A DNA stretch of 30,719 nucleotides. Source: a virus. The DNA is taken from the IMG/VR virus record IMGVR_UViG_3300018080_000442, positions 1 to 30,719 of that record; one strand, written 5' to 3'. Position 1 is the first letter of the stretch; each line of letters begins with the position of its first letter. Of this stretch, positions 9,101 through 29,582 are shown piece after piece. A program made the position numbers and the translations under genes. The notes under the pieces are model-generated. The model ran no database searches. It was not told the origin of the DNA and was given only the letters and a program-made list of their open reading frames with translations.

Positions 9101-12100
9101 GAGAAATCAACCCATTCCTCGGCTTGTGGTTCAGAAGCTTGGGAGAACTCTTCATCAGATAACTTAGTATGCGGGTCTGGGCCAACACCCTCTTCACGAG
9201 GGAAGAACTGCTCAAAGAAGGCTAGACCATTTTGGCCTGTACGTCTGGGTAGTCTGCCACGAACATACTCAGAGAAGTCATCAGCAAAAGCTTCTTCAAG
9301 CTCATTATATTCGTCTATATGGTAAAAAGCATTGTCTAACTTCATACCTGGAGAAAGTTTATGCCAATTTTTATCATCCTTGTATATTTTCTCTAGTTCT
9401 GGTAGGTTTCCCCTCACCTTGTCCCAATTTATAGCTTCCCCTTTATGTCTCCGCCCAACATGGATAGAAGCATAAACATCGAGGAAACTGGTATCACCAT
9501 CTTCAAATGCCTGACCAATAATCCCATGAGCTACTTCATGGAACATAACCTCTGGATCGAGTAGAGTCTCCTTATCTTGTGCCCTTATGATACCATCGTC
9601 TGGCATCCAAGAAGCACGAGTTGTTCTAATACCACCTTCCGTCAAGAACTCTGGATTTATTTCAAAGCCTTTGACCATCTTACGAATTGAGGTGGGTAGG
9701 CCACGAAGGTACTCAAGGACTGTCTCCCGATCCTCAACCTCAATACCCTCACCCCAGGTAAGGTGCTCCCATGACTCTATCTCTGCCTTGGTAGCAGGAA
9801 CACGAACCTCAGCCACCTTCTTCAACTCAGATAGTTGGGTTCTCCTTGCGTCTATCTGGTCTTGGGTAAGTTTGAGGTTCTCCTTCAAATGGTCAACAGC
9901 AGCTTTCTCTTCCACTATACCCGTTGGGGAACCACTCTGCTCGAGAGCGTAAATTCGATCTTGCTTCGCAATGATACTATTAGATATTGTTTCTATTTCC
10001 CCTTCCAACTCCTCAATGTCAGCTTCATGCAAAGCTATCTGTCTGTTGTAGGTTCTCTTGTATACATCTGTTATCTTGGTATTTAGGTCATCCTCCATAA
10101 CAGCACCGGCAACACTAGCTACCAGCTCTTCACCACGTTCAGTCTCGGCAAACTCATCCAGCGCTTCCTTCTCGGCAGCAGCCGTAGCTGGTTCGTCTTC
10201 AACCCCATCCTTCATCAGCTGCTCTTTCAACTCCTCAACCCTTGAGTCGAAGTCAGCCTTGTCACTTGGGGTCATGTGCTCTTTGGTAGTTTCAATCATC
10301 CTGTTGATGATCGCACCAGAAGCCCCGAACCCTACACCCATCATAGTACCAATGATGAAGGCTTCCTTGGCATCTGCATCGAAAGCCCAAGGGTCTTCCT
10401 CGCCCGTTGCTATATTGTAGACTACATTCTGGTAGAGTTCCTCACCACCCTCTGTGAGACCGACAATGGTTGTTTTACCAGCAACAGTCCCTAGCTTGAA
10501 CAGACCACGGTTTATTCCTCTGGCAAAGTTTTTCAAAGCATTGGCACTTGGAGCAAAGATCGTGGCAAGCTGAACAGCATCAAGACCCGCAAGCTTCATG
10601 TTACCCCAAAATGCCTCATTAGCAGCTTCATGGGCTTCATCCCAACTTGCACCCTCAGCGAGTTGTGCATCAAGCACACCACCTGCTTCCATCATGGACT
10701 CAGTGGTTCGGGACATAACACCGCCTGTGACACCGCCAAAGATGGTACGGAGGATTGTTGAACCAAAGGTTCCAAGCCCAGCCTTAGTAGCTACAGGGCC
10801 AGCTAAAGCAGCGCCACCAGCCCAACCCCACATGCCAACCAACATTAGATGGGCAGTAGTGGGAACTGTGCGGACAACACGTTGGGCATAGAAATTTGGG
10901 TTAAGGAGATGGCTCCACTGGAACTCACCCATAGTATCTACAACGTTGGGTGTGACAAACTCGCCCATCTCGTACATCTTCTTGGCTCCACCATCCCAAC
11001 CCATCATCTTTGTTGCCCCACCGAGGGTTTTCCACATATCACCATAACCTGCAAGGACAGATTTACCAGCAGTCTCCACAAAGCCAAGTAAACCCTTCTT
11101 CGGTATAGCCCTCTTGACCTTCTGGAGCATATCATGGTAGAACTCAACAATATATGAATCCTCGGTAACATCCCCGTAGATATCTGGGAAAGTCTCCTGA
11201 ACCCAATCAACTATAGCTTGATAACGTAGTTTTTTGTCACTGTAGAAGGGTATAGAAGCTAGGTCTTTAAGAGTCTCGTACCTCAAATGTGGGTATATTT
11301 GGGCTATATAATCAATAGGAAGTGTAGCTTCCTTTGGTTCATTGTCAGCAAGAAAAGCCTCTTCCAGGGTCAATGGGAGGAACTCTTCGGTATCCTCATC
11401 ATAGTGGGCTATGAGTTTATTGTTCTCATCCCAAACATCTCCCTCACGAAGAACGAACGGCACTGGTTCCCCAGACTCATCATCTATCATAATTATAACC
11501 TGACCACCACCCTCAGCTAGACCATCATAGTACCGCTGCAACGCCTCGACAGCTGTCTCGCCTTCCTTTGGTTCAATTCCATACTTCTCCTTGAGTGTCC
11601 GAAGCAGGGATTCTTCAAGTTTGGCAGCTCGGTCATCTACCTCAGTGTCGGTTAACCCGCCAAGCTTTTGCTCCGATTCTAGTGGATTGCCAAGCTCATC
11701 TACTGGTGGATAAGCAAGCTGTAGTGCCTCGGCTATTTCCGGTATATCCTTGCTGAAAGCTACTGTGGACATAATTTGGTTTGGTGATAGTTCGTCTTGG
11801 TTGGCTGCTAACCAATCCCAAAGGTCTATGTCCGAGACATCGAACCCACCCTCAATGATCTCCTTGGGAGACTTCTGGGCTATGGATTGGGCAAAGTTAG
11901 TGACCCACTCTGTCTCCTCATCATTGAAGTATAGACCTATGACTTTGAACCGTGAGCCAAGCTCTGTGGTATCTACGATTGGATGGCCCACAACAGCCAA
12001 GTATTGAACGGCATCCATGATATCTGGCAAGAGGGTGACAACCTTCTGCTTTCGTACCATTTCTTGGTACTCTTCCTCTAGTTCTAGCCGGTTCGCTACT

Positions 12101-22830: not shown

Positions 22831-22859
22831 TTGACATAACACATCAGATGTGTTATGCT
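22831..22859 (+). promoter_or_regulatory. Promoter P4 of the ubiquitin-like operon, with internal palindrome
   Basis: TTGACA (22831-22836), a 17-nt spacer and TATGCT (22854-22859), with TGT as extended -10. The spacer holds a perfect inverted repeat ACACATC-A-GATGTGT (22839-22853), a likely operator. Its right half, GATGTG, is shared with promoters at 18472 and 26172. The upstream AAGCATGGCTAT also occurs upstream of P3. Confidence 0.85.
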
Positions 22860-22919
22860 TTGACTATCCGTGGGTGCGTAGGTTTTGACCTAAGTTATGC
22901 CCCAGAAAGGAGGTTACCT

Positions 22920-23165
22920 ATGACTAGGTGGGGACAAAATCCTGAGATCGTAAACATCGAGACCGGACGTGGCGACTCCATTTCGGCAGAGGTTGGAACC
23001 AGCTTTGTTGCCGCAGTGGAAGCTGCCGCATCTCAGGCCAATTATGGGGGATACTTCCGAGTGTTCCTCAATGGCGCTGAGATCATCGACCCCGATGCCG
23101 CTCCTGCCACCATCGAGGCTGGGATGCGGATTCAGATTACCTCTTTTGACAAGGTAGGAGTGTAG
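22920..23165 (+). CDS. Ubiquitin-like (beta-grasp) modifier protein, 81 aa
   Basis: ATG at 22920 follows GAAAGGAGGTTACCT, about 60 nt after promoter P4. Size and pattern fit a ubiquitin/ThiS/MoaD-like beta-grasp fold: N-terminal hairpin (VNIETGRGDSISAEVG), a central helix (SFVAAVEAAASQA), then FRVFLNGAEII and a closing MRIQITSFDKVGV, as in PRTRC-C-type modifiers. The C-terminus ends Gly80-Val81 rather than Gly-Gly, so trimming of Val by the neighbouring JAMM protease could expose a terminal Gly (inference). Codons are GC-rich relative to neighbours, as expected for an abundant modifier. The E2, E1 and JAMM genes follow. Confidence 0.75.
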   Translation: MTRWGQNPEIVNIETGRGDSISAEVGTSFVAAVEAAASQANYGGYFRVFLNGAEIIDPDAAPATIEAGMRIQITSFDKVGV

Positions 23166-23449
23166 TCTGACTTGGGTGCTGGTGTCCTGTCGGATCGGGA
23201 TACCAATGTTGGTTAAAATTGGTATACAGAAGTTCAAGGCAAGTAAGAACCGTCAGTAGGTGTGTTTCTCCAATTACGGAGACAGGGCCGAAGGATCGCT
23301 CTGAACGTAAGCAACTTTGTTACCAGCTTTAAGGCAAGGGCAGCAAACTGGAGGTCTGGTGTTGGTACCGCTCCTAAAGAGAACCCTTCCCGTGGTCAGG
23401 CACGTTAAATCCGAGCCAGCACAATTCTATAGAAAGGAGGTTATGCACA
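23166..23449 (+). other. 284-nt gene-free, hairpin-bearing stretch inside the ubiquitin-like operon
   Basis: No convincing ORF lies here. ATACCAAT/ATTGGTAT (23200-23207/23218-23225) makes a perfect 8-bp hairpin; TCTCC/GGAGA around 23270 and ACCAG/CTGGT around 23323-23360 give further stems. Two 11-mers, ACTTGGGTGCT and GTGGTCAGGCA, are shared with the 20296-20401 intergenic hairpin region. It may be a regulatory leader that separates abundant modifier expression from lower enzyme expression. Confidence 0.5.
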
Positions 23450-24526
23450 GTGGAATTGACATTACAACAGACCGTAGACGGTCTAGAGAGTATGCGCAAC
23501 GACGAGTTCCCTGAGGGTATGTCTATTGGACTTAATCTTGGGGAACATGGTTACTGTGAGATCAGATCAAATTGTCCACTCGCAGTTCGTCTGCGTACAA
23601 TGGTAGAAGAGATGGGCATTGACCTGGAGAAGTTCATCAACGAGTATCAAGAAACACCGCCTGATCCCCTCACTTTCGCAGATTGGTCTAATACCATTAG
23701 TGAGGTTGAAGGTGACCTTTCACTCACCATTGGTGGACAGACTTTCCATCTCGACTACACCACGATTGTTACTGACCACTTGAAACAAGCTATCCAGACA
23801 CGGCTAACTCGGATGAGAGATATAGAGCAGTCTCTGGTTCGCCTCAAACAGGACTACTACAGCACCTATAAGAATGAGGTTCTCCTTAGGAGGGAGCGGA
23901 GGGGTCTCACCCTTCCAGGTAGTTTTACCTCAGTTGACCTTGCTTCGTGGGGGATAACAATGGGAACAGGATACAACGGGAGTAACTATGAGTTCATCCT
24001 GCCTCTTCCCTATGACCCTGCATTTGTCTTCTCACGAGGGCAGAAATACGCCATCCTTGAGAGACATCAACAAGCACTCCGCAGGGACAATGTGGTTCTC
24101 TTCCTAGATATTACCCCAAACTACAAGTTCAGGAGAGCCCAAACCATGCAGAGAGTAGCCAAGGAGAGGAAAAGCCACTACACTAGCTTCAGTCACTATC
24201 ATGGAAGTGGTGGTGATGACTGTTGGGGGAGTGTAGTCTTACCTGCTAAATGGGAAGGCACAATAGGACAACTGCTTCGACTTCGGGATGAATTAGCTGT
24301 TTCTCTGACTACAATTAACAAGGACAGCCTCATGAATAGCCATCCAGTAGATATGTTGGCGATTCAAACCATCATGGAGAAGGCAACCCAGCTCGGAACT
24401 GAAGGAGAGGTTACCCGTAGTCCAGATTCCGACCCAGATAAACCGGATATAACTTTTGTAGATCTGGAAAGCATCATCATAGATGAGCCTCGTGTGGGTG
24501 CTGTCCGCAGATGGGGAGGGAGATAA
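23450..24526 (+). CDS. E2-like ubiquitin-conjugating enzyme, 358 aa
   Basis: GTG at 23450 lies 9 nt after AAAGGAGG. Near residue 249 the protein reads HYHGSGGDDCWG, then KWEGTIGQLLRLRDEL and later NKDSL. This matches the E2 catalytic signature (H-P-N-I-x-x-x-G-x-x-C-L ... W-x-x-x-x-T-I-x-x-L-L), with Cys258 as the presumed thioester cysteine. Residues 1-130 are helical and acidic; 130-245 contain the beta-meander expected before the active site. It is longer than eukaryotic E2s (about 150 aa). It would transfer the modifier from the E1 encoded 2 nt downstream to an unknown target. Confidence 0.75.
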   Translation: MELTLQQTVDGLESMRNDEFPEGMSIGLNLGEHGYCEIRSNCPLAVRLRTMVEEMGIDLEKFINEYQETPPDPLTFADWSNTISEVEGDLSLTIGGQTFHLDYTTIVTDHLKQAIQTRLTRMRDIEQSLVRLKQDYYSTYKNEVLLRRERRGLTLPGSFTSVDLASWGITMGTGYNGSNYEFILPLPYDPAFVFSRGQKYAILERHQQALRRDNVVLFLDITPNYKFRRAQTMQRVAKERKSHYTSFSHYHGSGGDDCWGSVVLPAKWEGTIGQLLRLRDELAVSLTTINKDSLMNSHPVDMLAIQTIMEKATQLGTEGEVTRSPDSDPDKPDITFVDLESIIIDEPRVGAVRRWGGR

Positions 24527-24528
24527 AC

Positions 24529-25227
24529 ATGGAACAAACAGAATTGGTATACGCAAGACAGGAACAACTCCTACTAAGTGTCCCATCTAGTGTAACTGTT
24601 GTGGGAGTAGGTGGAGTTGGAACTTGGGTAGCTATCCAGGCTGCTATGTCAGGAGTGGGGGAACTTCACCTCTTTGACGCAGATGTACTTGAGGAGCACA
24701 ATCGTAACCGACTTCCATTCTGCCAAGGTGGTCTCAACAGGCCAAAGGTAGATGTAGTAGCCGACTTTATCAGGGCTATCCGTCCTGACTGCTTGGTTTG
24801 GGCTATCCATGAGAGGTTAGAAGGGGAGGACAACATTAGGAACCAGTTACAAATCTCCCATACAATCGTAGACTGTACGGATTCCCCACGGACACAGATA
24901 GAACTCTATAAAGTGTGTGGGCAGTATGGTGGGTTATATATTCGTGCGGGATATGATGGAACACACATAACTGTGTCCTCCTCAGTGCCTGGATGGATAA
25001 AGAATGCAGAGCGGGAGACATATGAGATCAATCCATCCTGGGTCGTGCCATCGGTGGTTGTCGCAGCATTGGCAGTGGGTAAATTGATGAAATACCCCGA
25101 CCAAGAAGTGTCCTTGGAGATTGGAGAGATCGGGATACCCATGCTTAACCGTATACCACCACCTGGGGCACGGTGCAGACAGTCGGGTAGCTCAGAAACG
25201 TCAACTAGGACGAGAAGAAGGAGGTAA
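24529..25227 (+). CDS. E1/ThiF-like ubiquitin-activating enzyme, 232 aa
   Basis: I choose ATG 24529 (MEQTELVY), preceded by GGGAGGGAGATAAAC. The Rossmann nucleotide site is clear: G-V-G-G-V-G at 26-31, then L-F-D-A-D-V-L-E-E-H-N-R-N-R (48-61), the E1 signature D-x-D-x-V-x-x-x-N-x-N-R, K73 and a D-C-T-D segment. E1 enzymes adenylate the C-terminal Gly of the modifier. In the crossover-loop region (VSSSVPGWIKN) no cysteine appears where ThiF/MoeB and canonical E1s carry the catalytic Cys, so transfer may use another Cys or pass directly to E2. The Arg-rich C-terminus is encoded by DNA overlapping the next ribosome site. Confidence 0.85.
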   Translation: MEQTELVYARQEQLLLSVPSSVTVVGVGGVGTWVAIQAAMSGVGELHLFDADVLEEHNRNRLPFCQGGLNRPKVDVVADFIRAIRPDCLVWAIHERLEGEDNIRNQLQISHTIVDCTDSPRTQIELYKVCGQYGGLYIRAGYDGTHITVSSSVPGWIKNAERETYEINPSWVVPSVVVAALAVGKLMKYPDQEVSLEIGEIGIPMLNRIPPPGARCRQSGSSETSTRTRRRR

Positions 25228-25229
25228 GA

Positions 25230-26114
25230 ATGAGTTTCAAAGAGTACAAATCCAAATTGGAGGGAGATTATGAGGTCATAGACACCGCTGCTGGGAGGGT
25301 GTATGTGGCCAGGAAATCAAAGGGGTGGAAAACCAAAGAGGTTAAGGAACCACCTGTTACCTGCTCGCTGTGCTCGGAGCTTGACATCTTTCTTGAGTAC
25401 ACACCACGTAAGAAACTCAAATTGCTCATGGAGGAGTTCACTGACAAGGAGTGGATGGGATATTTGGTCGGACTCCAGTATGATGAGGGAATATGTGTTA
25501 CTGACTTGGTTATCCCACCCCATGAAGAGTCTAACTACTCTTCTGCCGAGGCTGAGCCATTCAACATACCAGACGACTGTGTTGGAGTGATCCACTCCCA
25601 CCACAAGATGGGTGCTTTCCACTCAGGTACTGACCACGACCATGTGGACTCCAACTTCCCATGTTCCATTACAGTTGCAGTCAGTGGTGGTAAGCTAGAG
25701 TTCAGCACGGTAGCCGTCATCCACACTCCATGTGGTAAAGTTGCTGAGGTCACACCCAAACTGGTGTTCGTTGATCCTCCACCCACATTCCCAGAGGAGG
25801 AATGGTTCGAGGAGGCAGTTACTAATGTTAAGAAGGGGCAGTGGTCATACAAACATCCAACTACTGTTCAGCCTACTACTGCTAAAGGGTGGGATGAGGA
25901 TGAGTATTTGGAAAGGCTATATGCCTATGCCTATGGAGCCAGTCCCCCAAAAGAGAAGTCCAATGGATGGGGAAAGAATCTGGCCAAAGAGACAACCCCT
26001 GATTCCTACCTCCCACTTCGCTACCGAGTTGCAGATGGTGGTCTCTATGATGAGAATAACCACGAGGTAGAGGATGGGGAACTGTTGGCTCTTATGGCTG
26101 CTTGGTCAGTCTAG
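25230..26114 (+). CDS. JAMM/MPN+ isopeptidase (JAB domain), 294 aa
   Basis: The gene starts 2 nt after the E1 stop. Residues about 45-165 form an MPN+ domain: general-base Glu E74 in KEWMGYLVG, and the zinc motif H122-S-H124 with x7, S132, x2, D135 (HSHHKMGAFHSGTD). All JAMM catalytic residues are present. Such enzymes process modifier precursors or remove modifiers from targets. The C-terminal 120 residues (KGWDEDEYLERLYAYAYG...) are an uncharacterised extension. Tail-assembly JAB proteins (lambda K type) are an alternative but lack E1/E2 neighbours and would be late genes. Confidence 0.9.
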   Translation: MSFKEYKSKLEGDYEVIDTAAGRVYVARKSKGWKTKEVKEPPVTCSLCSELDIFLEYTPRKKLKLLMEEFTDKEWMGYLVGLQYDEGICVTDLVIPPHEESNYSSAEAEPFNIPDDCVGVIHSHHKMGAFHSGTDHDHVDSNFPCSITVAVSGGKLEFSTVAVIHTPCGKVAEVTPKLVFVDPPPTFPEEEWFEEAVTNVKKGQWSYKHPTTVQPTTAKGWDEDEYLERLYAYAYGASPPKEKSNGWGKNLAKETTPDSYLPLRYRVADGGLYDENNHEVEDGELLALMAAWSV

Positions 26115-26119
26115 GTATT

Positions 26120-26150
26120 GGGGAGGGGAGCGCAGTTTGTTCCCCTCCTC
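26120..26150 (+). terminator. Hairpin ending the ubiquitin-like operon
   Basis: GGAGGGGA (26122-26129) pairs with TCCCCTCC (26141-26148), extended by flanking pairs, 8 nt after the JAMM stop. The following bases are not a strict T-run (CAGTCTATTTGG), so termination may be partial. It separates the operon from promoter P5. Confidence 0.55.
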
Positions 26151-26171
26151 AGTCTATTTGGAATCATAATA

Positions 26172-26200
26172 TTGACAAAAGTGCGCAGATGTGGTAGGAT
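26172..26200 (+). promoter_or_regulatory. Promoter P5 of the replication module
   Basis: TTGACA (26172-26177), a 17-nt spacer holding CAGATGTGG, and TAGGAT (26195-26200). The transcript should begin near 26205-26208, on top of ATG-ATG, predicting a leaderless or near-leaderless message for the ATPase gene. The spacer element matches P3 and P4. Confidence 0.75.
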
Positions 26201-26207
26201 GGTGATG

Positions 26208-26921
26208 ATGTTTGAAGTGCGGGATGGAGTGGATTACATGAATCTCCGCATCCCACCCCCCAGATTTATAATAGATAAACTACTAGCTGAGGGGGAATTT
26301 CTCATGATTTATGGGGATGCTGGTGTTCGGAAAACTTTTCTAGGATTGTGGATGGGATTCTGTATTGCTACGGGGACTGATTTTTTTGAGTTCCGAGTTA
26401 ATCAATCATCCATGTTAATAGGGAATTTTGAGTTGACTGATCATAGATTCCAATATCGTTTCCATAATATGGGAAATCAGTTTAGCTTTGATAGGAACCA
26501 GATAATGGCTTTTACTGAGCATAAATCACTCATGGTTCCAGAGAACTTTGCAGTGTTTCGATCAGTGGTGCTTAATCTTAGGCCGCAAGCCTGTGTTATT
26601 GATTGTATGCAGGAAGCTTATGCGAGAGATGAACTTAGTGAGGAGTTACTCGCTATATTCTTTGGAAACTTTAGGGAACTAGCTGATGAGACAGGCACAG
26701 CCTTTGTGTTTATCCACCATGAGAATAAGAACGAGGCTTATGTTGACACGTTATCGAGGATACGTGGTCACTCATATATTAAAGGTAAACTTGATGCTGC
26801 TATTCGGATAGTAAAGCAACCCAATGGAGGTAATCAGCTCCAGTATGCCAAGGTACGTCACGTTGATAACCTCCCAAATACCAACATTTTTTTCGAGGAT
26901 GGGTTATGGAGACTAAGATAG
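26208..26921 (+). CDS. RepA-like RecA-fold ATPase with altered Walker A, 237 aa
   Basis: The frame continues upstream but crosses the promoter, so the start is ATG 26208 (or 26205); ATG 26238 behind a weak GGAG is the alternative. The layout fits AAA_25/RepA-type replicative helicase-like ATPases: IPPPRFIIDKLLAEGEFLMIYG before the P-loop, Walker B ACVIDC, F-I-H-H-E-N-K, and an R-G-H-S-Y-I-K-G block. The P-loop reads G-D-A-G-V-R-K-T: the Gly before Lys is Arg, one base change (GGG to CGG at 26328). Activity may be reduced or altered. It likely acts in phage DNA replication or recombination. Confidence 0.75.
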   Translation: MFEVRDGVDYMNLRIPPPRFIIDKLLAEGEFLMIYGDAGVRKTFLGLWMGFCIATGTDFFEFRVNQSSMLIGNFELTDHRFQYRFHNMGNQFSFDRNQIMAFTEHKSLMVPENFAVFRSVVLNLRPQACVIDCMQEAYARDELSEELLAIFFGNFRELADETGTAFVFIHHENKNEAYVDTLSRIRGHSYIKGKLDAAIRIVKQPNGGNQLQYAKVRHVDNLPNTNIFFEDGLWRLR

Positions 26922-26972: not shown

Positions 26973-27119
26973 ATGGAGGTTAGAGTCAATGGTTCAACCA
27001 ACGAAGAAGATGGCTACTGGATTGAAATTGTTGGGAACAATGATGACAAACCAGAAGATGTAGCCGAAACGTACTTAAAAGTGAGGAGGATATTGGAAGA
27101 TGGCGCTATTCGACAGTAA
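26973..27119 (+). CDS. Small acidic protein, 48 aa
   Basis: ATG at 26973 follows TTAAGGAGGGTTGT; an upstream in-frame ATG at 26949 is possible. The product (MEVRVNGSTNEEDGYW...) combines two beta strands and a C-terminal helix (DVAETYLKVRRILEDG). It overlaps the start of the next gene by 20 nt, which contains the ribosome site of that gene. No family known. Confidence 0.65.
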   Translation: MEVRVNGSTNEEDGYWIEIVGNNDDKPEDVAETYLKVRRILEDGAIRQ

Positions 27120-27822
27120 ACAGGCAACGGAGAGTGGTTGGGCACAGGTAAGGGATGCCCTCCAGAGATTCGAGGGTGATGTTGTTGGATGCAAAGTAGG
27201 TAGATGGGAGTCTACAGGGTTTGATCCTGAGACAGGCAAACCATTCCCTGCCCAAGAGTTCTTTGAGGTTAAGAACAAGAATATCAAGGTTCTTAATGTC
27301 TCAGAAGAATTGAGTATGAATGTAGAGGGCCAGGAGTTTACCTTCCGCACCAACTGTTCCACATCCAAGAGTAGTTTCTGGGTAGATAACTTCCTTGGAG
27401 CTGCTGATGCACTGAAGGTCATGTTACCCCAGGGGATTACCGGCAAGCGAGTAATCTGGAAGAAAGAGACTCGTGAAGCCAACAACCCAAGATTCAACAA
27501 GACAGGCTTTGTGCTTGAAGCTGTGCTTGGTGATGCAACTGCCCCATTGGAAGACCTCGATGCTGAGCCGGAAGCTGTTATCCCTCCACCCCCAACCAAT
27601 GGTGAGCTTACATCAGAGGAGATGACTGGCATTGTGTTGGAACTAGCCAAGGGTAAGACCGAGGCTCAGTTGCAATCGGCAGCCAGTGTCCACCCCAAGC
27701 TCGTAGGTAGTCCGCTTCTTAACTTGGTTAGGACAGGGGCAGTTACCTCGATGCTTGTTGCTGATGGTAAGCTGGTCAAGGTAGCAGGTGATGGTGGAGA
27801 AGAAGTCTACCAGGGTAAGTAG
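27100..27822 (+). CDS. Putative single-stranded DNA-binding / recombination mediator protein, 240 aa
   Basis: ATG at 27100 follows GTGAGGAGGATATTGGAAG. Residues about 25-150 alternate as in an OB-fold (VVGCKVGRWESTG; QEFFEVKNKNIKVLNV; KRVIWKKETREANNPRF), followed by a Pro/Glu linker and a helical C-terminal region with GELTSEEMTGIVLELAKGKTE. Position between a RepA-like ATPase and a Cas4-like nuclease fits an SSB-type role. This rests on composition and context; no diagnostic motif is visible. Confidence 0.55.
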   Translation: MALFDSKQATESGWAQVRDALQRFEGDVVGCKVGRWESTGFDPETGKPFPAQEFFEVKNKNIKVLNVSEELSMNVEGQEFTFRTNCSTSKSSFWVDNFLGAADALKVMLPQGITGKRVIWKKETREANNPRFNKTGFVLEAVLGDATAPLEDLDAEPEAVIPPPPTNGELTSEEMTGIVLELAKGKTEAQLQSAASVHPKLVGSPLLNLVRTGAVTSMLVADGKLVKVAGDGGEEVYQGK

Positions 27823-28534: not shown

Positions 28535-28678
28535 ATGGAAGTCTACGAACTAGAGGTTATTGTCAGGAAGTCCGAAAGTGATATAGTAATTCAACTGCAA
28601 CTCCAAGACCTCTTGAGTTTAGTTAATAGGTCGTTCAATGCTGGTTATATTGAAGGGAAGGAGAGGAAGGATGCTTGA
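28535..28678 (+). CDS. Small protein, 47 aa
   Basis: ATG at 28535 follows AAAGGAGGAAATA. The product (MEVYELEVIVRKSESD...) has a beta hairpin and a helix, ending GYIEGKERKDA. Its end overlaps the nuclease gene start by 8 nt and includes that gene's GAAGGAGAGG ribosome site. Likely translationally coupled to the nuclease. Function unknown. Confidence 0.65.
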   Translation: MEVYELEVIVRKSESDIVIQLQLQDLLSLVNRSFNAGYIEGKERKDA

Positions 28679-29582
28679 GTGGTTTATTTGCCCAGACAAG
28701 AAACAAGTTAAAGTTACCGACTGCTTAGCTCAATGCCGAATGGGTAGTCGGTGTCTCACACTGCCAACCTTGCACATCTTGGGTGCAGAGCGAGAGTGGC
28801 ATGGTGAACCTTCTACTACTCAGTTGCTGAATGGTACGATGATGGAGTACTTGAAGCTCACCATGCCATATGCAGTTGACCCCAAATCTAGGGCATTCCT
28901 GTTGGCTGGTACTAAGCACCATGAACAGCTTGAGGAGGTGGCAAACAAGCTAGGTATCCCTGCTGAGATAGCACTCAGTACTGATAGGGATATCTTTGAC
29001 CTACTTGAGGAAGAGGATGGGGAACTGACGTTGACTGACTACAAGAATTGGGGTAGCTTTAAGCTAGCCAAGGCTCTTGGTATGAAGGAGATTGGGAAGA
29101 AGCCCCATCCGACTGAGGTGTATAAGAGCAACGGTAAATGGGGCAAAGCAGGTGAAGCTAAGATGATACCAGTCTTTGACAGCATCGAGGAGGAAGCTGA
29201 TAATTGGGAAGCGGAGTTGCAACTGAACAACTACCGTGTCAAGCTCAAGGAAGAATGGGGTATAGACATAGCGAAGATGAGACTCCAGGTTACGGTTCGT
29301 GATGGTGGTATCCACTCTGCTTTTGCCAAGGGTATCATGGAGAATATCTATCTTGTACCTGTGAAGTTCATCGAGGATGAGGTAGTTAAAGGGTACTTCC
29401 TGACCAAGAGGGAGCAACTACTTGAAGCGCTGGAACATGGGTGGACTAACCCCTGCTTGCCTCGTGAACGGTGGGATGATAGACGATGCAAGGGCTACTG
29501 TGATGTAGCTCAATACTGTTGGTATGGTAAGCAATTTATGGAGGTTGAAGATGCACTATACAATGGGACGGGTGACAATTAG
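28671..29582 (+). CDS. Cas4/AddB-like Fe-S PD-(D/E)XK nuclease, 303 aa
   Basis: The start MLEWFICPDK at 28671 follows GAAGGAGAGGAAGG. Nuclease motifs: G80-T-K-H-H-E85-x-L-E88, D123-Y-K125 and a later Q184 in QLNNY, as in Cas4, RecB and AddB families. C-terminal cysteines C273, C277 and C283 (C-x3-C-x5-C) with an N-terminal Cys (C22 or C28) can hold a 4Fe-4S cluster. The N-terminus carries an extra group of four Cys (C7, C18, C22, C28), unusual for Cas4. No Cas1 or Cas2 is present, so a phage recombination or end-processing exonuclease is favoured. Confidence 0.8.
   Translation: MLEWFICPDKKQVKVTDCLAQCRMGSRCLTLPTLHILGAEREWHGEPSTTQLLNGTMMEYLKLTMPYAVDPKSRAFLLAGTKHHEQLEEVANKLGIPAEIALSTDRDIFDLLEEEDGELTLTDYKNWGSFKLAKALGMKEIGKKPHPTEVYKSNGKWGKAGEAKMIPVFDSIEEEADNWEAELQLNNYRVKLKEEWGIDIAKMRLQVTVRDGGIHSAFAKGIMENIYLVPVKFIEDEVVKGYFLTKREQLLEALEHGWTNPCLPRERWDDRRCKGYCDVAQYCWYGKQFMEVEDALYNGTGDN

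Follow-up and report, generated by a model that had tools for sequence, protein, structure and literature searches.

We analysed a 30,719-base IMG/VR virus record (IMGVR_UViG_3300018080_000442; hereafter the window), a fragment whose minus strand carries virion genes (a major head protein, phrog_212, E=1.9e-53, and terminase-like matches) and whose plus strand holds, in order, a block of small genes, an operon for conjugation of a ubiquitin-like modifier (Ubl) and replication-type genes. The operon with its promoter and terminal hairpin occupies 22831-26151(+); its four coding genes, for the Ubl, an E2-like protein, an E1/ThiF adenylyltransferase and a JAMM/JAB metalloprotease, span 22920-26114(+) as a single unit. 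A preliminary description, made from the DNA letters without database searches, had read four tightly ordered frames here as a complete Ubl conjugation operon in a phage. All four are present, and our analysis supports an operon for both conjugation and deconjugation. The genes very likely encode a conjugation cascade, and the pathway as a whole is probably built into the replication module of the phage.

The first gene (22920-23165(+)) encodes an 81-residue protein that matched no family in a family search. Its AlphaFold model (pLDDT 83.5) has a beta-beta-alpha-beta-beta-beta arrangement, and the best PDB matches to the model in Foldseek were ubiquitin and SUMO (probability 0.98-1.00, TM ~0.6, E 0.007-0.03); SUMO also ranked first in a PDB profile search (E=0.02). 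As the preliminary description had suspected, the protein is thus very probably a beta-grasp fold, judging from the model. The sequence ends ...DKVG-V, terminating one residue (Val81) beyond a conserved Gly80. A C-terminal glycine is found in 28 of 28 credible Ubls, mostly as the final residue and otherwise followed by one to six residues; since those residues would require trimming, the JAMM protease appears to have a natural task here. The C-terminus also resembles that of UFM1, ...RDRVG; a PDB sequence search gave no match, and the resemblance was set aside.

The second gene (23450-24526(+)), whose start we corrected to a GTG at 23450, encodes a 358-residue protein that we assign as E2-like because of its position and an invariant cysteine motif. 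The candidate catalytic Cys258 lies in HYHGSGGDDCWG (residues 249-260; general form HYH-x(6)-CWG), and conservation among relatives is nearly complete for Cys258 (32/32), Asn290 (32/32) and H249 (31/32). The outlying E2s of contigs L078 and L079 carry PHCN-x-GGTVCLG, near the canonical E2 H-x-N...C-L pattern. The structured core of the model comprises residues 160-310. Two further features of these genes were observed: a conserved H-x2-C-x5-C-P near the N-terminus in the window clade (window residues 33-42, L049), possibly a small metal site, and a tandem pair of E2-like genes within one operon (L057:7240-8982).

The third gene (24511-25227(+), with 24529 a more probable start than 24511) encodes the 238-residue E1, which matches Pfam ThiF (E=2.6e-22) and PDB entries for ThiF, TcdA, UBA5, the NAE1 (NEDD8 E1) catalytic subunit, BubCD and Cap2. 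The glycine loop (GxGGxG), N64, R67, K79 and D124 are fixed in 39/39 relatives, so that the ThiF-type protein described earlier is present with its catalytic residues intact. The fourth gene (25230-26114(+)) encodes the 294-residue JAMM protein; its match to Prok-JAB (E=1.2e-4) falls slightly below the curated cut-off, and E74, H122, H124, S132 and D135 are intact exactly as first numbered, with H122, H124, S132 and D135 present in 39/39 relatives and E74 in 38/39. In three relatives (L058, L057, L069) the JAMM proteins reach 505-643 residues, with large uncharacterised C-terminal extensions.

ThiF and MoeB are among the closest E1 matches, and similar ThiS/MoaD-JAB-E1 neighbourhoods have been described (PMC1779556), which could suggest that the Ubl carries sulfur as ThiS and MoaD do, served by the E1 as adenylyltransferase and the JAMM protein as maturation protease, in tRNA or cofactor thiolation. 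This now appears quite improbable: the E2-like protein, with its invariant cysteine in an E2-type motif, always lies between the Ubl and the E1, and rhodanese, SirA, thiolase and cofactor genes were not recognised nearby. ThiF uses a conserved cysteine. The phage E1 has no conserved cysteine of the ThiF kind: the crossover-loop region has none among relatives, and the only cysteines kept in more than half of them are that of the DCTD motif and one in the glycine loop.

Transcription of the operon appears to be autonomous, in keeping with the earlier claim of its own promoter and terminal hairpin. A sigma70-like promoter (22831-22859(+); TTGACA-17-TATGCT with a TG extension, 10/12 matches) precedes the Ubl gene, as TTGACA-type promoters immediately do in relatives L072 and L074; a ribosome binding site for the Ubl gene (AAAGGAGGT) lies at 22906-22914(+), and the hairpin (-28 kcal/mol, z=-6.2) closes the unit at 26117-26151(+). 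Between the -35 and -10 boxes lies a perfect 23-bp palindrome, CATAACACATC-A-GATGTGTTATG (22835-22857), present in one copy in the window where none is expected; given this position and single occurrence, it is probably a repressor operator. The 284 nt between the Ubl and E2 genes (23166-23449) contain no convincing gene and a terminator-like hairpin at 23180-23205, and gaps of a similar kind separate these genes in L072 and L018. No Rfam families or tRNAs were found in the window.

Relatives were recovered by searching DNA for a pattern encoding the JAMM motif HSHHxMGxFHSxTD, followed by Ubl and E1 alignments and iterated profiles; they comprise metagenomic IMG/VR viral contigs and one metagenome-assembled genome (MAG), after removal of three near-duplicates with identical coordinates. 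The MAG is labelled Thermoplasmata, but at 5 Mb it may be mixed. The order Ubl-E2-E1-JAMM occurs in 26 non-redundant contigs, a count that includes the window and a second contig from the MAG; at least 25 other IMG/VR or MAG contigs thus share the arrangement of all four genes with the window. The operon is under purifying selection: ratios of nonsynonymous to synonymous substitution (dN/dS) are 0.07-0.33 for all four proteins in pairs with unsaturated dS. Distance matrices of the four parts agree with one another and with those of the clamp genes discussed below. Scans of viral contigs with the single proteins E2, JAB and E1, and an over-strict E2 DNA pattern, recovered no relatives; blastn and tblastn searches of 50,697 annotated phage records found no comparable operon, and a plasmid search found no such operon. 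GIY-YIG-like homing-endonuclease frames lie beside operon genes (L067:7244-7864, L067:9576-10310, L068:9543-10472, L070:9562-10233) and interrupt some operons (L067, L068, L070); in L068 the E1 C-terminus is present twice, the additional copy lying at 10290-10469 beside such a frame.

The genes around the operon point to DNA replication. In the window it is followed by a RepA/RecA-like ATPase (26118-26921(+), true start probably near 26208; AAA_25, 1.9e-23; matches to primase/helicase PHROGs, and synteny) with a separate promoter at 26172-26200(+), a conserved syntenic 240-residue protein of unassigned function (27100-27822(+)) and a syntenic RecB/Cas4-like exonuclease (28638-29582(+); phrog_2139, 6.4e-9). 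The same succession follows the operon in relatives of the window clade that extend far enough. In L073, of this clade, an ERCC4 nuclease gene and one for DNA polymerase A come after the operon, and L053 and L054 have DNA ligases near it. In 17 contigs of a second clade, the operon lies directly 3' of genes for gp44-like (phrog_168, 2.5e-62; Gp44_lid) and gp62-like (phrog_225; Phage_clamp_A) clamp-loader proteins and a sliding clamp, the last a 250-residue protein that aligns with T4 gp45 in hhalign (E=7.7e-7) and has archaeal PCNAs as its best PDB matches (E=0.05). Because these 17 contigs were found through E1, clamp adjacency as counted here, from the side of the operon, is not biased by the search. 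An eighteenth clamp-adjacent operon, on the second MAG contig, was reached through a clamp search rather than E1. The clamp of this clade was not found in the 50,697 phage records, and a clamp search of two bacterial/archaeal phyla returned only the MAG already known.

This setting bears on a role in tail assembly, against which the preliminary description had argued from placement. The pairing of a Ubl with a JAB protease is known from phage tail genes (PMC1779556), and the operon might act there as the lambda TAPI (Ubl)/TAPK (JAB) pair does. Its position and gene content contradict such a role: E1 and E2 are present, the strand is opposite that of the virion genes, the neighbours in the window and its relatives are replication genes, and neither NlpC/P60 nor tail genes accompany the operon. 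We consider a tail function extremely improbable.

Harder to set aside is a real pathway that marks host proteins or defence factors early in infection, as offence or counter-defence. The early-type region, with an autonomous promoter and candidate operator, would suit such a role, and anti-phage defence is known for bacterial Ubl systems (PMC10097602; for Bil, as cited in PMC12660748). However, unrelated virus groups keep the operon next to core replication genes and purifying selection on it is strong, which suggests a core function rather than a variable counter-defence cassette. Neither defence nor anti-defence genes were recognised alongside, and PADLOC matched the E1 only, to generic E1-E2 models. 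Host marking therefore seems unlikely. The preliminary description had left open whether host or viral proteins are marked; with clamp-loader and clamp linkage in 18 relatives, viral replication proteins become the likelier of the two. Its further suggestion, that the phage counters a modifier system of the host, found no evidence: the operon encodes a complete forward pathway, including its Ubl, rather than a protease on its own.

We therefore favour a pathway directed at the phage's own replication proteins, which could proceed as follows. The JAMM protease would first trim Val81 from the C-terminus of the Ubl so that Gly80 becomes terminal, and would later also strip the Ubl from its targets. 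The ThiF-type E1 would adenylate this glycine, after which Cys258 of the E2-like protein would receive the Ubl, probably directly from the adenylate, since the E1 crossover region has no conserved cysteine. The E2, with no adjacent E3, would then attach the Ubl to amines on replication proteins of the phage. In the T4-like relatives these would be the sliding clamp or clamp loader; in the window clade, helicase or recombination proteins. Because the operon adjoins clamp and replication genes in separate viral groups, replisome proteins are our best guess for the target, one we hold to be reasonably likely from this gene context. The most specific form of the proposal is more tentative, and we offer it as a possibility on the doubtful side: that uncultured tailed phages of one class attach a phage-encoded Ubl to their own sliding clamp or replisome through a dedicated E1-E2-JAMM cycle, as a viral analogue of PCNA ubiquitination or SUMOylation outside eukaryotes.

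A short Trp-centred motif (such as DVWST, EYWDGG or MAWGK) recurs at many E2 C-termini, Ubl N-termini and JAMM N-termini, including the near-invariant Trp355 of the E2-like protein (31/32 relatives), and in two small proteins whose genes lie between or next to the clamp genes (L061:5983-6261, L061:7079-7534). This motif is a probable docking peptide. The idea that it is the clamp-binding peptide was not supported, as most DNA polymerases of these phages instead end in sequences resembling PCNA-interacting peptides (PIP-like; QTSLSSFFKR-type); for the same reason the partner of the motif is probably not the polymerase pocket of the clamp.

Several observations weigh against the proposed pathway or its target. 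The target is named from synteny alone, and neither the window nor its close relatives, these being fragments, contain the clamp genes. The Trp motif, being unlike the PIP-like polymerase C-termini, lends no direct support to clamp docking, and neither an E3 nor a known reader of the tag was found. The E2-like protein matched nothing in family library searches, and its model had no significant Foldseek match in either of two libraries, though about ten of the top 50 non-significant matches are E2s such as UFC1. Alignment by hhalign with seven Prok-E2_B proteins from bacterial genomes was likewise negative, with the sole exception of L078/L079, which align weakly, precisely at the catalytic motif. 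A UBC fold in the E2 candidate is thus unproven, and the E2 assignment could still fall.

The search with the JAMM motif also returned nine contigs with a different order, JAMM-E1 (L002, L004, L007, L009, L011, L012, L013, L015, L017). In four of them (L002, L011, L012, L015) the pair is preceded by a protein of the 81-residue class, ending ...NKSGIVA or ...NKSGIVS, and a protein of ~500 residues; at these four inspected loci the larger protein carries HPHI-x(4)-PCL or a sequence near it, a textbook E2 signature. In L013 the ~500-residue protein, with HPHIAGPNPCL, stands at the contig start, and the contig is cut before the small protein, while L004, L007, L009 and L017 have the JAMM and E1 genes. 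Given an E2-type motif and a small protein in this second architecture, complete Ubl pathways seem to exist in at least two viral lineages.

Ubl conjugation in bacteria has until now been treated chiefly as anti-phage defence; here the phages own the pathway and keep it under purifying selection together with replication genes. The open literature (preprints and most subscription papers lay outside this scope) yielded no description of a Ubl conjugation operon in a phage, nor any connection of one with sliding clamps. Should the substrate be the clamp or some other protein of the replisome, Ubl-regulated DNA replication exists outside eukaryotes. The 26 loci offer four small proteins with a natural candidate substrate in the neighbouring genes.

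Among known systems, the operon appears to be a variant of the Ubl-conjugation operons found in bacteria (Bil, Bub, type II CBASS, PRTRC). Bub (bacterial ubiquitination-like) operons (Gong 2025 and Ye 2026, as cited in PMC13373217) are likewise bacterial Ubl conjugation operons, and the phage E1 is related to BubCD (PDB 9ea4, E=3.7e-7); BubCD, however, fuses E1 and E2, whereas the phages encode them as separate genes in replication modules, and regulators of the CapW/CapH/CapP/CapK/CapS type were not recognised beside the phage operon. Bil (BilABCD) shares the set of four genes, Ubl, E2, JAMM and E1. Yet BilA has two Ubl domains, BilD has an inactive and an active adenylation domain, and the Bil E2 has Cys-Glu-His-His downstream of the cysteine (PMC11354881), whereas the phage Ubl is a single domain of 81 residues with no tandem Ubl, the E1 is one ThiF domain of ~200-240 residues (238 in the window), the His of the E2-like protein lies upstream of the Cys, and the gene order is Ubl-E2-E1-JAMM.

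Cap2/Cap3 of type II CBASS (cyclic-oligonucleotide-based anti-phage signalling system) and 6A-MBL resemble the phage proteins in E1, E2 and JAMM chemistry, with weak E1 similarity. The phages differ from type II CBASS in having E1 and E2 separate and a dedicated Ubl, and membership is unlikely because no CD-NTase was recognised in general scans of the window proteins, in which no search was aimed at CD-NTase. PRTRC loci (class 6d of Iyer 2006, PMC1779556) likewise place Ubl, JAB, E1 and E2-like genes on mobile elements, but the phage proteins score 15 bits against a cut-off of 144.75 for PRTRC_ThiF and 11 against 101.8 for PRTRC_A, and the conserved His follows the Cys in class 6d E2s (PMC1779556 Table 1) whereas it precedes it in the phages. 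The lambda TAPI/TAPK genes differ in that the phage operon is not among tail genes and its JAB protein is without NlpC/P60. Compared with eukaryotic PCNA ubiquitination and SUMOylation, the clamp modification proposed here is read only from gene order; the likeness is a Ubl pathway apparently devoted to a clamp-bearing replication module, one that by analogy would work like the ubiquitin and SUMO pathways.

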